41,384 nucleotides of DNA, taken from positions 1-41,384 of the forward strand of contig ONIN01000014.1 of NCBI GenBank assembly GCA_900317905.1, in the 5' to 3' direction. Below the pieces are notes generated by a model, which was not told where the DNA came from, ran no database searches, and saw nothing but the letters and a program-made list of their open reading frames with translations. A program made the position numbers and the translations under genes. Positions 4,128-9,107 of this stretch are shown here, in pieces. Source of the stretch: an uncultured Eubacteriales bacterium (lineage in GTDB: Bacteria; Bacillota; Clostridia; Oscillospirales; Oscillospiraceae). Each line of letters opens with the position of its first letter. Within the stretch, counting starts at the first letter, position 1.

Positions 4128-4377
4128 AAATTGGAGTTTAGCGAGCAGTCGGATGTTGTGAAAACCTAAAAAAGAATGTCATTGCGAGGAGCGAAGCGAC
4201 GTGGCAATCCGCATCCCCCGGCGGCGGACTAGAATCCAGCAGAACGTTGAAAACAAACGAATTCGCCCAACATTTTGCAAATAAACAGTCTGTACTGCAA
4301 GAGAACGGATTGCCACACCAGTCTGCGGACTGGTTCGCAATGACAAGATTTTTACTCTGCTCGATAAACTGGAATTT
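4128..4377. repeat. MITE-like repeat, copy 1
   Basis: The element is about 250 bp, with 21-base imperfect inverted ends at 4128-4148 and 4357-4377 (18 of 21 match; core AAATTSSAGTTTA). A second inverted pair lies inside: GTCATTGCGA (4178-4187) and TCGCAATGAC (4335-4344). The right-hand ~50 bases are nearly the same as in the copy at 31.2 kb. It codes for nothing convincing. Confidence 0.75.
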
Positions 4378-4453: not shown

Positions 4454-4600
4454 TTACTTGTCAGCGTGCTCGCACTTCTGGTTGGCGATGCCGCAGCTGG
4501 TCTTGCAGGCGGACTGGCAAGAGGTCTGGCACTCGCCGCAGCCGCCGTTCTTGGCGCTGTCGCAGAGATTGCGGGTGTTCAGGGTCACGATATGCTCCAT
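4454..4600 (-). CDS. scfA: SCIFF peptide precursor (six-cysteine ranthipeptide)
   Basis: This 48-aa peptide begins MEHIVTLNTRNLC and has cysteines at 13, 21, 24, 28, 32, 36 and 43 with the NGGCGECQTSCQSACKTSC core of the SCIFF family. SCIFF peptides are nearly universal in Clostridia. Their radical SAM/SPASM maturase (ScfB) installs Cys-to-Thr thioether links, and the cell function is not settled. AGGAGG-type Shine-Dalgarno (TGGAGGAA) sits before the ATG, and the gene has its own promoter and terminator. Usually scfB follows directly; here the next gene downstream is a ferredoxin, and no radical SAM gene is seen in the window. Confidence 0.95.
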   Translation of the reverse strand: MEHIVTLNTRNLCDSAKNGGCGECQTSCQSACKTSCGIANQKCEHADK

Positions 4601-4635: not shown

Positions 4636-4664
4636 TATATACCACATTCTTCATTGGAAGTCAA
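4636..4664 (-). promoter_or_regulatory. Promoter of scfA
   Basis: On the minus strand, TTGACT (4664-4659) and TATATA (4641-4636) are separated by 17 bases, 36 bases before the scfA start codon. Confidence 0.7.
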
Positions 4665-4714
4665 GCAGCACCGCCCTTTTGGACAGGTTTTGCCTTTCGG
4701 GCATAAAATACGCA

Positions 4715-4743
4715 TTGACATGACAGTCAAATTCTGTTAGAAT
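4715..4743 (+). promoter_or_regulatory. Promoter of the pot operon leader RNA
   Basis: A consensus TTGACA (4715-4720) and TAGAAT (4738-4743) are separated by 17 bases. It is the only good promoter seen before potA, about 400 bases upstream of that gene. Confidence 0.75.
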
Positions 4744-4749
4744 AAGTCA

Positions 4750-5117
4750 TCTCAATCTGAAAGTCTTAATCCGATTTATAAGAGTCTTTCTGAAGCAAGA
4801 TGCGACCGCTCCTTTTGGAGCCAAGGCCACACGGACAGCCGGGTCGAATGCCGAATACCGCAGCGCGGTGGCAACTTCTGTTGCCTTATTGATGGAGTTA
4901 AAAGCTCAAGTTTTATAAGTTGGTCACTTAAAACCGGCGGACCTCGCGGTCTGCAAACTTGTGAACTGGTCAATAAGAGTAGTAAAAGTATCTATGCTAT
5001 ATAGACTCTCAACGACTGAATCGGATATTTCTATACCTGCCGTGGGATTTTTCCATGGTGGGAATCGGGATGTATCTGTGCACAAGTCACAGCCGCGGGC
5101 TGTGGCTTTTTTCTTTT
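4750..5117 (+). ncRNA. Structured leader RNA upstream of potABCD, family not recognised
   Basis: The region between promoter and potA has no good ORF but a clear fold. A long-range closing helix pairs 4769-4776 with 5019-5026 (8 bp) and 4781-4787 with 5003-5009 (7 bp). Inside are GCTCC/GGAGC (4808-4821) within CGACC/GGTCG (4803-4807 with 4842-4846). GGCAAC pairs with GTTGCC (4870-4885). A compound hairpin pairs 4907-4913 with 4955-4961 and encloses 4937-4943 with 4948-4954. AGAGT at 4976-4980 can compete with 4781-4787 for the same partner. A terminator follows, so this could be a riboswitch-type leader or a free ncRNA. I do not recognise tmRNA, SRP, RNase P, 6S, T-box or a common riboswitch in it. 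Confidence 0.65.
5088..5117 (+). terminator. Intrinsic terminator between leader RNA and potA
   Basis: CACAGCC (5088-5094) pairs with GGCTGTG (5098-5104), followed by GCTTTTTTCTTTT. It lies 28 bases before the potA start, so transport genes are expressed only by readthrough or antitermination unless a cryptic promoter exists. Confidence 0.85.
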
Positions 5118-5144
5118 GTCAAACTGCGCGGAGAGGAATTGGGA

Positions 5145-6263
5145 ATGAAAAAAATCATCGAACTGCGCGGCATCAGCAAAGCCTATGACGGCGAAACGGT
5201 GCTGGACCACATCAACCTCGACATCTACGACAACGAGTTTCTGACGCTGCTGGGCCCCTCCGGCTGCGGCAAGACCACCACGCTGCGGATGATCGGCGGC
5301 TTTGAGCAGCCGGACGAGGGCGACGTGATGTTCCTGGGGGAGCGGATCAACGATCTGCCGCCCCACAAGCGGAACGTGAACACCGTGTTTCAGAAGTACG
5401 CGCTCTTCCCCCATCTGAACGTGTTCGACAACGTGGCGTTCCCCCTGAAGGAGCGCAAGGTGCCGAAGGATGAGATCGAGCAGAAGGTCACCGAGATGCT
5501 GAAGCTGGTGAAGCTCTCCGGCTTCGAAAAGCGCAACGTCACTCGTCTCTCCGGCGGCCAGCAGCAGCGTGTCGCCATCGCGAGAGCGTTGGTGAACCAC
5601 CCCCAGGTGCTGCTTCTGGACGAGCCTCTGGGCGCATTGGATCTGAAGCTGCGGAAGGACATGCAGCAGGAGCTGAAGAACATCCAGAAGGCCACCGGCA
5701 TCACCTTCGTCTTCGTCACCCACGACCAGGAGGAAGCTCTCAGCATGTCGGACACCATCGTGGTCATGAGCGAGGGCCGCATCCAGCAGATCGGCACCCC
5801 GACGCATATTTACAACGAGCCCCAGAACGCCTTCGTGGCGGACTTCATCGGCGAAAGCAACATCGTCGACGGCGTCATGCGGGAGGATTACAAGGTCACC
5901 TTCTCCGGCCACACCTTCGAGTGCGTGGACAAGGGCTTTGAAAAGAATGAGCCGGTGGACGTGGTGGTGCGCCCCGAGGACGTGGACATCGTGCCGCTGG
6001 AAAAGGGCATGCTCCGGGGTCTCGTGACCAGCGTGACCTTCATGGGCGTCCACTATGAGATCATCATCGACATCGGCGGCTTCAAGTGGATGATCCAGAC
6101 CACGGACTTCGTGGCCGAGGGCGAGCAGGTGGGTCTCTATATCGAGCCCGACGCCATCCACATCATGAAGAAATCCGAGTATTCCGGCATGTTCGGCGAC
6201 TACTCCTCCTTCAGCATGGAGCTGGACGAGCTCTCCGACGCGGAAAGCGAGGATGCCGAATGA
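5145..6263 (+). CDS. potA: Spermidine/putrescine ABC transporter ATPase PotA
   Basis: This is the ATPase subunit of the polyamine importer, 372 aa. Walker [10 protein letters not shown] lies near residues 40-48, signature LSGGQQQR near 137-144, Walker [12 protein letters not shown] near 157-167 and the H-loop THDQEEA near 192-198. A C-terminal TOBE-type domain (about 240-350) is followed by an acidic tail. The start at 5145 follows GAGAGGAATTGGGA; an upstream in-frame start at 5055 lies before the terminator and is rejected. It is the first gene of a tightly packed operon, with its stop overlapping the potB start as ATGA. Confidence 0.95.
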
Positions 6264-7132
6264 AGCGCCGGGGCAATCTCGCGGCGCGCTGGAGTCTCGC
6301 GCCGTACAGCGCCTGGGCGCTGCTGTTTATTCTGGTGCCGCTGGTGTTCGTGGCCTACTACGCCTTCACCGACACCGACATGCACTTCACCTTCGACAAC
6401 ATCCGGAAGTTCTTCACCGCCACCAGCACCGTCACCGGTGACAACGGCGAGACCCTGCAGATCCGCACCTACATGGTGATCTTCTGGCGGTCGGTGAAGC
6501 TGGCCGTCATCTCCACCATCGTGTGCCTGCTGATGGGCTACCCCATCGCCTATATCATCGCCCGCGCCACCCCGAAGGTGCAGAAGACCGTCATCACCCT
6601 GATCATGATCCCCATGTGGATGAACTTCCTGATCCGCACCTACGCCTGGATGACCATTCTCCAGGACACGGGCATCCTGAACAATTTCCTCGCCAGCCTC
6701 CATCTGGGCCGCATGCACATCATCGGCACCGAGAGCGCCGTGGTCATCGGCATGGTCTACGACTATCTGCCCTACATGATCCTCCCGATCTATTCCATCA
6801 TGGCGAAGCTGGACTTAAAGCTGCTGGAGGCCGCCCACGATCTGGGCTGCAACGGCATCTCCACCCTGCGTCGGGTGGTGTTCCCCCTGAGTCTGCCGGG
6901 CGTGGTCTCCGGCGTGACCATGGTGCTCATCCCCTCCATCAGCACCTTCTACATCTCTCAGAAGCTGGGCAACGGCAAGTTCTTCCTGATCGGTGACGCC
7001 ATCGAGGGGCAGTATGTGGCCAACAACCTCCACTTTGCCGCCGCCATCGCTTTCATCCTCATGGTGATTCTGCTGATCGCCATGGCGCTGATGAAGCGCT
7101 ACACCGACAAGAGCGTCGCAGGAGGTGTGTGA
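6260..7132 (+). CDS. potB: Spermidine/putrescine ABC transporter permease PotB
   Basis: This is one of the two membrane subunits of the polyamine importer, 290 aa with about six membrane segments, starting around residues 17-37. The EAA loop that contacts PotA reads [25 protein letters not shown]-like near residues 193-217. The start at 6260 overlaps the potA stop. The family (PotB/PotH, binding-protein-dependent transport permease) is clear. PotC is encoded 2 bases downstream. Confidence 0.93.
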
Positions 7133-7133
7133 G

Positions 7134-9107
7134 ATGAAAATGAAACCCGCATCCAAGATCTACACCGCCTTCATCTTCCTGTTCCTGTTCGCGCCCATCG
7201 TGATCCTGCTGGTCTTCAGCTTCAACGCCTCCAAGAGCCTGAGCGTCTTTTCCGACCCCTCTTTGAAGTGGTATCGGGAGCTGTTCCGGGATGAGGAGAC
7301 CTTGAGGGCCCTGCAGAACACCCTGGTGCTGGCGGTGACAGCCTCCATCCTCTCCACCATCATGGGCACTGCCGCCGCCGTGGGCATCTACCGCCTGCGG
7401 AAGAAATACCTCAAGGCCGCCTATGACACGGTGACCAACATCCCCATGATGAACCCGGACATCATCACCGGCATCTCCCTGATGCTGATGTTCGTGTTCG
7501 TGGGCAGACTTTTCGGGCTCAGCACCAGTCTGAGCTTCTGGACCATGCTCATCGCCCACATCACCTTCTGTCTACCCTATGTGATCCTGCAGGTGCTGCC
7601 GAAGCTGCAGCAGATGGATCCCGCTCTGCCCGAGGCCGCCATGGACTTAGGCTGCACCCCGGTGCGGGCCTTCTTCCGGGCTGAGGTGCCGGAGATCCTG
7701 CCCGGCATCATCACCGGTCTGATGATGGCCTTCACCCTGTCGCTGGACGACTTCGTCATCAGCTACTTCACCCAGGGCAACGGCTTCCAGACCCTGCCCA
7801 TCCGCATCTACAACATGACGAAGAAGACCGTCACCCCGAAGATGTACGCCCTGGCGACCATCATCTTCTTCGTGATCCTGGCGCTGCTGCTTTTGACGAA
7901 CCTCGTGGACGAGGACGACAGCCGCCGGATGAAGGAGGCCCGGGCGCAAAAACGCGCCGCCAGGGGCAAGCCGCCCCGCCGTGCCGACAGCAACAAGCGC
8001 GGCATTGCCATCGTGGGCGCCATCCTGGGTCTCACCATCGTCATCATCGCCGCCATCGGCATCACCAGACCCAAGCCCGTGGAGCTGAACGTCTACAACT
8101 GGGGCGAGTACATCTCCGACGGCTCTGAGGACACCCTGGACACCATCCAGGCCTTCGAGCAGTGGTATCTGGAGGAGTACGGCTACCCGGTGAAGGTCAA
8201 CTACGAGACCTACGCTTCCAACGAGGACATGTACGCCAAGCTCAAGAGCGGCGCCGTCAGCTATGACCTGGTGATCCCCTCTGACTACATGATCGCCCGC
8301 ATGGCCGCCGAGGATATGCTGGTGCCGCTGAATTACAGCAACATCCCGAATTATGAGTACATCTCCGACAGCTTCCGGGGATTGTATTACGATCCCGATA
8401 ACCTCTACACCGTGCCCTACACCTACGGCGTCATCGGTGTGATCTACGACGCCAATCAGGTGGACGAGGAGGATCTGGGCAGCTGGGATCTGCTGTGGAA
8501 CGAGAAATACGCCGGGAACATCCTGCAGTTCAACAACTCCCGCGACGCCTTCGGCACCGCCATGTACCGGGCAGGCGCCGACGTGAATACCACGGATCAC
8601 GCCGTCTGGGACGCCGCCCTGGAGGAGTTGGCCAAGCAGCATCCCCTGGTGAAGAGTTACGTCATGGACGAGATCTACAACATGATGGAGTCCGGCGAAG
8701 CCGCCATCGCCGCCTACTACGCCGGCGACTACTTCACCATGATCGACGCGGAGTCCGACAACGTGGATCTGCAGTTCTACTACCCTGAGCCCACCAACTT
8801 CTTCGTGGACGCCATGTGCATCCCCAAGGGCTGCCAGCATCAGGAGCTGGCGGAGATCTTCATCAACTACATGCTCTCTGAGGAGCCCGCCGTGGCCAAC
8901 GCGGAGTACATCTACTACGCCAGCCCCAACCGTCTCGTCTATGAAAACGAGGACTACATCGACGAGATGGGCGAGGAGACCATGGAGATCCTCTATCGGT
9001 TCACCGATGATTTCTCCGACCTGTTCAACCGGTACGCCTACCGGAATCTGGACCAGGAGACCCTGACCTACATCAACGATCTCTGGGAGACCCTGAAGAT
9101 CAGCTAA
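7134..9107 (+). CDS. potCD: Fused PotC permease and PotD substrate-binding protein
   Basis: This single 657-aa protein carries two subunits of the importer. Residues 1-265 are a PotC-type permease with six membrane segments and an EAA loop (EAAMDLGCTPVRAFFRAEVP). A basic linker (KRAARGKPPRR) and one more membrane helix near 290-310 tether residues 315-657, a PotD-type binding protein starting with VYNWGEYISDG. The fusion replaces the lipoprotein anchor of a free PotD. The start at 7134 has GGAGGTG 6-7 bases upstream. PotCD fusions are known in some Firmicutes. Whether it prefers spermidine or putrescine cannot be read from the sequence. Confidence 0.93.
   Translation: MKMKPASKIYTAFIFLFLFAPIVILLVFSFNASKSLSVFSDPSLKWYRELFRDEETLRALQNTLVLAVTASILSTIMGTAAAVGIYRLRKKYLKAAYDTVTNIPMMNPDIITGISLMLMFVFVGRLFGLSTSLSFWTMLIAHITFCLPYVILQVLPKLQQMDPALPEAAMDLGCTPVRAFFRAEVPEILPGIITGLMMAFTLSLDDFVISYFTQGNGFQTLPIRIYNMTKKTVTPKMYALATIIFFVILALLLLTNLVDEDDSRRMKEARAQKRAARGKPPRRADSNKRGIAIVGAILGLTIVIIAAIGITRPKPVELNVYNWGEYISDGSEDTLDTIQAFEQWYLEEYGYPVKVNYETYASNEDMYAKLKSGAVSYDLVIPSDYMIARMAAEDMLVPLNYSNIPNYEYISDSFRGLYYDPDNLYTVPYTYGVIGVIYDANQVDEEDLGSWDLLWNEKYAGNILQFNNSRDAFGTAMYRAGADVNTTDHAVWDAALEELAKQHPLVKSYVMDEIYNMMESGEAAIAAYYAGDYFTMIDAESDNVDLQFYYPEPTNFFVDAMCIPKGCQHQELAEIFINYMLSEEPAVANAEYIYYASPNRLVYENEDYIDEMGEETMEILYRFTDDFSDLFNRYAYRNLDQETLTYINDLWETLKIS

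Follow-up and report, generated by a model that had tools for sequence, protein, structure and literature searches.

Results

The pot operon and its promoter

The window, that is, the whole stretch of 41,384 nucleotides analysed here (contig ONIN01000014.1 of an uncultured Eubacteriales bacterium), carries polyamine import genes on its forward strand, to which all coordinates refer unless indicated otherwise. The first gene downstream of the leader described below is potA (5145..6263), encoding a spermidine/putrescine ABC transporter ATP-binding protein (NF043075, 571 bits, cut-off 550). It is followed by the permease gene potB (6260..7132), whose best NCBIfam match is PotB at 199 bits, below the cut-off of 348, and by a potC-potD fusion (7134..9107) joining a permease and a substrate-binding protein in one frame of 657 aa, with NCBIfam scores below and Pfam domain scores above the respective cut-offs. 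An Orn/Lys/Arg decarboxylase is present in the genome, in which no spermidine synthase, AdoMet decarboxylase or carboxynorspermidine synthase match was found and the nspC match was weak and below cut-off. As the genes for spermidine synthesis were unmatched, the importer may be the genome's source of spermidine, with the reservation that in a genome 79.6% complete the absent genes may be missed ones.

A consensus promoter had been claimed ahead of the leader in an earlier note on this DNA, and the consensus scan places it at 4715..4743, with a -35 element TTGACA (4715-4720), a -10 element TAGAAT (4738-4743), a 17-nt spacer, a TG before the -10 element and 11 of 12 consensus matches. The same note had seen no other promoter; likewise, the scan returned no sigma-70-like site in 5109-5145, a range covering the interval 5117-5145 in which the note had allowed for a separate potA promoter. 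We infer a transcription start near 4750, giving a leader of about 395 nt up to potA at 5145. Among related loci, a promoter-like site (at least 9 of 12 matches) was found upstream in 122 of 161, near-duplicates included, as compared with 14 of 161 single-base shuffles; the shuffles used here and in the terminator, arm, P0 and segment tests below keep base composition, not dinucleotides.

Two further elements were observed upstream. A 48-aa SCIFF precursor gene (six-cysteine ranthipeptide; TIGR03973, 80.2 bits, cut-off 50) lies on the reverse strand at 4454-4600 and is transcribed away from the pot promoter. The repeat CATTGCGAGGAGCGAAGCGACGTGGCAATCC at 4180-4210 occurs in three copies in the genome (up to 3 mismatches), has an inverted partner by eye near 4310-4345, and resembles the end of a small mobile or palindromic element.

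Anatomy of the leader

Folding of 4745-5160 gave -142.9 kcal/mol (z = -4.62), a value as low as which was not reached by any of 100 shuffles. The outermost long-range helix comprises 8 bp between ATCCGATT (4769..4776) and AATCGGAT (5019..5026), and its sequence differs among homologues. Inside it lies P0, the outer part of which consists of 7 bp between AGAGTCT (4781-4787) and AGACTCT (5003-5009), so that the 8+7-bp long-range helix of the earlier note is recovered at the positions given there. The inner part of P0, in which AGCAAGAT (4794-4801) pairs with ATCT (4990-4993) and TGCT (4995-4998), was not part of that description, nor were the pairing of the terminator with the core and the extreme conservation of the RNA, both of which are treated below.

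Within P0, a domain matching the Rfam family RF02440 and supported by covariation spans 4803..4854. It contains P1 (4803-4807/4842-4846), P2 (4808-4821), a GGC/GCC helix (4825-4827/4838-4840) and a proposed CGG/CCG pseudoknot (4832-4834/4851-4853), the pairs of which never vary in the 61-sequence alignment A2. An extra hairpin (4857..4869), confined in the alignments to a subgroup to which the window belongs, is followed by the covariation-supported P3 hairpin GGCAAC...GTTGCC (4870..4885). The P4 domain (4886..4976), also supported by covariation, is made up of P4 (4886-4893/4969-4976, UUAUUGAU/GUCAAUAA), P5 (4895-4907), P6 (4912-4920/4957-4965, UUUAUAAGU/ACUUGUGAA), P7 (4922-4935) and P8 (4937-4954). 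The conserved segments of the RNA include ACGGACAGCCGGGUC and UUAUUGAUU.

At the 3' side, the P9 hairpin AGAGT...ACTCT (4976..5009) is formed by 4976-4980/5005-5009 and an inner AGTA/TGCT helix (4987-4990/4995-4998), and is mutually exclusive with P0. Its 6x6 internal loop, AGUAAA/AUAUAG (4981-4986, 4999-5004), is strikingly conserved and is possibly a defined tertiary motif or contact. A linker hairpin (5036..5062) separates P9 from the intrinsic terminator, which the earlier note had also placed before potA and which the scan finds within 5081..5113 as 11 pairs at 5084-5108 plus a T-run.

Relation to RF02440 and to pneumococcal F59

When 4650-5250 was searched against Rfam 15, positions 4803-4854 matched model positions 1-54 of RF02440, 'Streptococcus sRNA SpF59 (ldcC RNA)', at 70.2 bits (gathering score 37.2), and no other family, SAM-I and T-box included, was returned up to E = 1. 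A T-box leader was accordingly dropped as a candidate. RF02440 was likewise the sole Rfam family on the RNA in 8 of 8 homologous loci at gathering scores, and by score it is the same family as the RNA of the window. The entry, which is typed as an sRNA, is limited to P1, P2 and the strand next to them, whereas the RNA of the window type is about four times as long and adds P0, P3-P9 and a likely expression platform. Thus, the earlier statement that no known class could be recognised is correct in part, since 54 nt of the leader belong to a family filed as a Streptococcus sRNA.

Distribution, size and divergent members

Of 300 genomes sampled from the window's family, 80 had a match to RF02440 at E <= 0.001 (79 over the cut-off), as did 18 of 398 sampled from its phylum (18 over the cut-off); among 14 control genomes, only Lactococcus lactis had one. 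At least 118 loci were recovered when titled genome contigs were scanned with a sequence pattern. A covariance model of P1-P4 (R1, 164 positions) matched 20 of the 398 phylum genomes and 51 of 197 order genomes, with one copy each; the match ran end to end in all 20 + 51 positives, the weakest of which skip inner parts. As the loci are related, these and the following counts represent non-independent samples. Among the matches listed, most come from Oscillospiraceae/Ruminococcaceae, Lachnospiraceae and other Clostridia, with several Bacillota orders represented, and Paenibacillus, Bacillus, Neobacillus, Kurthia, Lactococcus, Acidaminococcus and Phascolarctobacterium also occur. The matches listed further include one MAG labelled Spirochaetes (L101) and one labelled Synergistaceae (L138), reflecting either transfer between phyla or binning errors.

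Across 131 aligned non-redundant leaders, a stretch of about 205 nt that runs from P1 through GACTCT is strongly conserved. Three divergent copies (L182, L226 and L229) are without the P1/P2 domain, and three others (L131, L228 and L230) keep P1-P4 and have no recognisable P5/P6; the two domains may therefore be separable. Both Lactococcus loci, L131 and L144, deviate in P5-P8, so the P6-based antiterminator described below may not hold in the Lactococcus lineage or in streptococci. The shortness of the Rfam entry may reflect a P6 mechanism that does not extend to streptococci.

Covariation

The short pattern was placed in 163 of 164 loci (L044 was left out), of which 154 had enough flank and 131 were kept by a 90% identity filter. 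From these 131, 73 were chosen, and 12 of the 73 were left out of the model because of long inserts or poor alignment. In A2 (61 sequences, MAFFT), an alignment not fitted to the structure although the structure itself was drawn from a member, 91.8% of cells were paired and 28 of 52 pairs vary in both partners, as compared with 30-47% paired for slid structures. The divergent members found with R1 strengthened this result: in A3, a model-aligned set of 98 of the 231 loci that leans towards the model, 94.3% of cells were paired and both partners vary in 37 of 49 pairs, a count reached by 0 of 500 shuffles, with slid structures at 32-43%. Covariation among homologues, which the earlier note had proposed looking for, is hence present. 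Support is thinner for P4 and P6, where most pairs vary on one side or barely, than for P1, P2, P3, P5 and P8. In 6 rows of A3, the outer pair of the GGC/GCC helix is replaced by A-U.

A custom R-scape-like test over all column pairs (131 sequences, 60 simulated nulls) returned only P1 and P2 pairs at E <= 0.05, as variation in the 3' half is too low; the best P3 pair reached E = 0.27. For P1 itself, RNAalifold on the trimmed alignment had paired the 5' strand GACC with a distant 3' GGUC. This pairing was rejected since the base preceding GACC and the one following the nearby GGGUC change together (UA in 52, GC in 41 and CG in 28 of 130). The strands of P0 were compared as duplexes in 119 loci, near-duplicates included: own strands gave -16.2 kcal/mol, permuted strands -13.5 (0 of 200 permutations reached the own value) and shuffled strands -7.9.

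These data also bear on attenuation by a leader peptide, in which a ribosome would sense ornithine, arginine or a polyamine. Such control is known for other polyamine genes, as with speFL of enterobacteria, and a short TTG frame can be read by eye across P5 in many members. Against this, in 36 of 123 leaders the spacer length is not divisible by 3, so that the frame is lost, a frame of at least 10 codons preceded by an SD sequence lies inside the RNA in only 7 of 157 (near-duplicates included in both counts), and the covariation is that of RNA stems. Without a conserved translated short frame, assignment to the leader-peptide attenuators was rejected, and we give such a mechanism almost no credence.

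Gene context

The loci were collected by the sequence of the RNA itself, and the gene context is thus not circular. After merging near-duplicates, 230 of 231 loci (L225 was unplaced) gave 205 distinct ones, and in 197 of these a polyamine gene is the first one recognised downstream; 7 of the others were too short and 1 had another gene. First genes were SpeD (70), Orn/Lys/Arg decarboxylase (57), PotA (46) and carboxynorspermidine synthase (24), where only the first recognised gene was counted, reference proteins were drawn from the same loci with self excluded, and an unrecognised gene may lie in between (the median match starts 243 nt past the reference point). In the titled loci with at least 1600 nt downstream, a subset of the 163 above, polyamine genes come first in 93 of 93: PotA in 28, Orn/Lys/Arg decarboxylase in 27, SpeD in 26 and carboxynorspermidine synthase in 12. 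Subsequent genes include SpeE, SpeB, PotBCD and NspC. Representatives of SpeE, SpeD, agmatinase and NspC pass the NCBIfam cut-offs; the representative decarboxylase and carboxynorspermidine synthase fall below these and pass Pfam's for their families. RF02440 itself hence sits on polyamine genes, so the match is not to a family unrelated to polyamines, a possibility the earlier note had raised.

One copy of the RNA (L209; R1, 134.7 bits), with a terminator visible by eye, precedes a gene that is not recognised as a polyamine gene and by eye resembles a secreted peptidase. It is possibly a new regulon member or a rearrangement.

The label 'ldcC RNA' suggests that someone tied the RNA to ldcC, and SP0916, the Streptococcus pneumoniae gene before which F59 lies, is presumably a lysine or arginine decarboxylase. 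In published catalogues, F59 is listed with 82 nt between SP0915 and SP0916 (PMC3395615), as srn235/F59 with 327 nt at 869478-869804 (PMC12323649), and with a lung phenotype (PMC4387999). That all three catalogue it as a pneumococcal sRNA, and that RF02440 is typed as one, would fit a trans-acting sRNA (Rfam's SpF59) standing before polyamine genes by chance. We consider this very improbable, since genes of one pathway lie downstream in 197 of the 205 loci, the terminator 5' arm is tied to its own core (see below), and the pneumococcal entry at 869478-869804 before SP0916 looks like a terminated leader. A terminated fragment of a cis-acting leader may have a further role in trans.

Terminator and predicted antiterminator

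Terminators were sought in the 130 of 163 loci in which the P6 motif was found and 450 nt of downstream sequence were available. A strict terminator follows the RNA in 93 of these 130 leaders, near-duplicates included, as compared with 3, 0 and 0 of 130 in three single-base shuffles. With near-duplicates removed the count is 80 of 107, leaving 27 of 107 without; some leaders failing the strict rule have imperfect terminators (L033 and L035), and others without a strict terminator may act differently.

In the window, the strand shared by the 3' sides of P8 and P6, CUGcaaACUUGUG (4951..4963), is predicted to pair with the terminator 5' arm as an antiterminator, 4951-4953 with 5090-5092 and 4957-4963 with 5081-5087. 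The other half of this pairing is CACAAGUcaCAG (5081-5092), that is, the terminator 5' arm and the 3 preceding bases. Over the 80 non-redundant leaders, the duplex between the arm and this P8-3'/P6-3' strand averages -14.5 kcal/mol; arms exchanged among loci gave -11.8 (sd 0.24; the best of 300 exchanges was -12.5, and 0 of 300 were as low) and shuffled arms -7.9. At least 6 contiguous arm/core pairs occur in 78 of 80 leaders versus 40 of 80 shuffled. When 16 segments were scanned along the RNA in 93 leaders, P8-3'/P6-3' stood out at -8.3 kcal/mol over shuffle, the others ranging from -1.0 to +1.7. The own arm had a median rank of 19 of 93 against its own core and fell in the top tenth in 32 of 93 (near-duplicates included); it is seldom the best partner, as would be expected where the P6 strand hardly varies. 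The shared P6 sequence accounts for most of the fit of the arm, to which a locus-specific component is added.

The alternative pairing partner proposed in the earlier note, AGAGT (4976-4980) competing with 4781-4787, is real and conserved and pairs with ACTCT (5005-5009), but it is the P8/P6 3' strand (4951-4963) that contacts the terminator instead. A direct link of the P0/P9 switch to the terminator was sought and none was seen; the link runs via P8/P6. Forced folds of the 66 of 93 leaders with all elements located (near-duplicates included) gave P0 in 51 and P9 in 6 in the terminated state. Conversely, P9 formed in 51 and P0 in 0 in the antiterminated state, the zero being partly by rule because nested folding forbids P0 together with the antiterminator.

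At equilibrium the terminated state was more stable in 66 of 66 leaders, by a mean of 15 kcal/mol, and control would therefore have to be kinetic. In the window, even before the terminator 3' arm exists, the P6 state is still lower (-115.0 vs -109.6). Such thermodynamics would also be expected of a structured 5' UTR serving stability or folding without switching. That reading appears extremely improbable in view of the two mutually exclusive helix sets and of terminator arms and P0 strands that match the locus they come from better than they match other loci. The layout of a riboswitch or attenuator, possibly a polyamine-responsive one of a new class, as suggested earlier for this leader, is thus supported by the homologues, the covariation, the gene context and the alternative pairing of the terminator.

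Discussion

A candidate polyamine OFF switch

The evidence assembled from sequence comprises a covarying fold, two mutually exclusive helix sets, a terminator, a promoter and a polyamine gene context. Taken together, these point quite firmly to a cis-acting, metabolite-sensing riboswitch that would act as a transcription-terminating OFF switch, its ligand being most likely spermidine or a related polyamine. Direct ligand binding, the identity of the ligand and the OFF direction are what we infer from this pattern, the direction because P6 is part of the conserved core and a ligand stabilising the core should promote termination. Control by an end product would be expected to work in this direction. 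Spermidine is the first candidate since the genes share it as product or cargo, and since import may be the genome's source of it.

In the proposed mechanism, transcription would start near 4750. With ample polyamine, spermidine being the best guess, the core P1-P8, closed by P0, would keep the 3' strand of P8/P6 within P6; with this strand held, the terminator (5084-5113) would form and RNA polymerase would stop before potA. When polyamine is scarce, P6 would open, 4951-4963 would pair with 5081-5092 as the antiterminator, P9 would replace P0 and potABCD would be read.

The same terminator switch in cis could respond to a different signal, either a leader-binding protein or one of the pathway metabolites SAM, decarboxylated SAM, agmatine and putrescine. 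The gene context fixes the pathway and not the ligand, and SpeD and SpeE use SAM and its product. Nevertheless, PotA comes first in 46 of the 205 loci and the window's genome gave no SpeE, SpeD or carboxynorspermidine synthase matches, so an imported polyamine fits better than SAM. A protein-binding site is usually smaller than a metabolite aptamer, and the long near-invariant stretches of the RNA are typical of the latter. We therefore regard a signal of either kind as unlikely, and retain a polyamine, with spermidine foremost, as the preferred ligand.

Comparison with known systems

The spermidine riboswitch derived from SAM-I (Salvail et al. 2023, PMC10853860) resembles the proposed model in that it is an OFF switch acting by premature termination before speE, speB and ldcC. 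It is described there as keeping the four-stem SAM-I aptamer and as rare and narrow in distribution. In contrast, the leader studied here has no SAM-I match up to E = 1, is built from different helices, is widespread and precedes importer genes too; identity with the SAM-I type was ruled out on the missing core match and the differing helices.

Likewise, the potE and odc1 motifs are structured RNAs near polyamine-related genes (PMC8632094). There, potE is described with weak covariation support and without an obvious expression platform, and odc1, which is filed as a uORF element, is a pseudoknot-containing hairpin of alpha-proteobacteria. The RNA of the window is distinct from both motifs as described. 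In Borrelia burgdorferi, spermidine lowers the importer mRNA and an early 3' end at the potB 5' RNA rises (PMC10319736), which is reminiscent of the behaviour proposed here. However, the 3' end lies inside the coding sequence in that case, changing codons abolishes the effect, and only a small hairpin is described (PMC10319736).

The literature searched, mainly outside subscription journals, held no account of this RNA as a switch or riboswitch. The sole bacterial polyamine riboswitch class found in print is rare and narrow in distribution, and its authors expect more (PMC10853860). The RNA of the window is a probable new riboswitch class. With slightly less assurance than for the single leader, but still in favour, we propose that a widespread class of polyamine riboswitch in Bacillota has gone unrecognised and that RF02440 represents only its visible part. 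The class would have a core of about 200 nt with the P0/P9 switch and the P8/P6 antiterminator, would govern both spermidine synthesis and import, and would have an origin independent of the SAM-I-derived class. Polyamines are abundant RNA-binding cations. The size of the RNA and its two separately losable domains leave room for two binding sites or for the sensing of two polyamines.

Significance

If this proposal is correct, a natural large aptamer exists that must discriminate between polyamines, and it would be usable for sensing polyamines. The pneumococcal sRNA that PMC4387999 lists with a lung phenotype would be reinterpreted as a terminated leader. The class would be a common one, standing before speD, decarboxylase, carboxynorspermidine and pot genes, and it would account for feedback control by polyamines in many Clostridia of the gut as well as in Paenibacillus and relatives of Bacillus.
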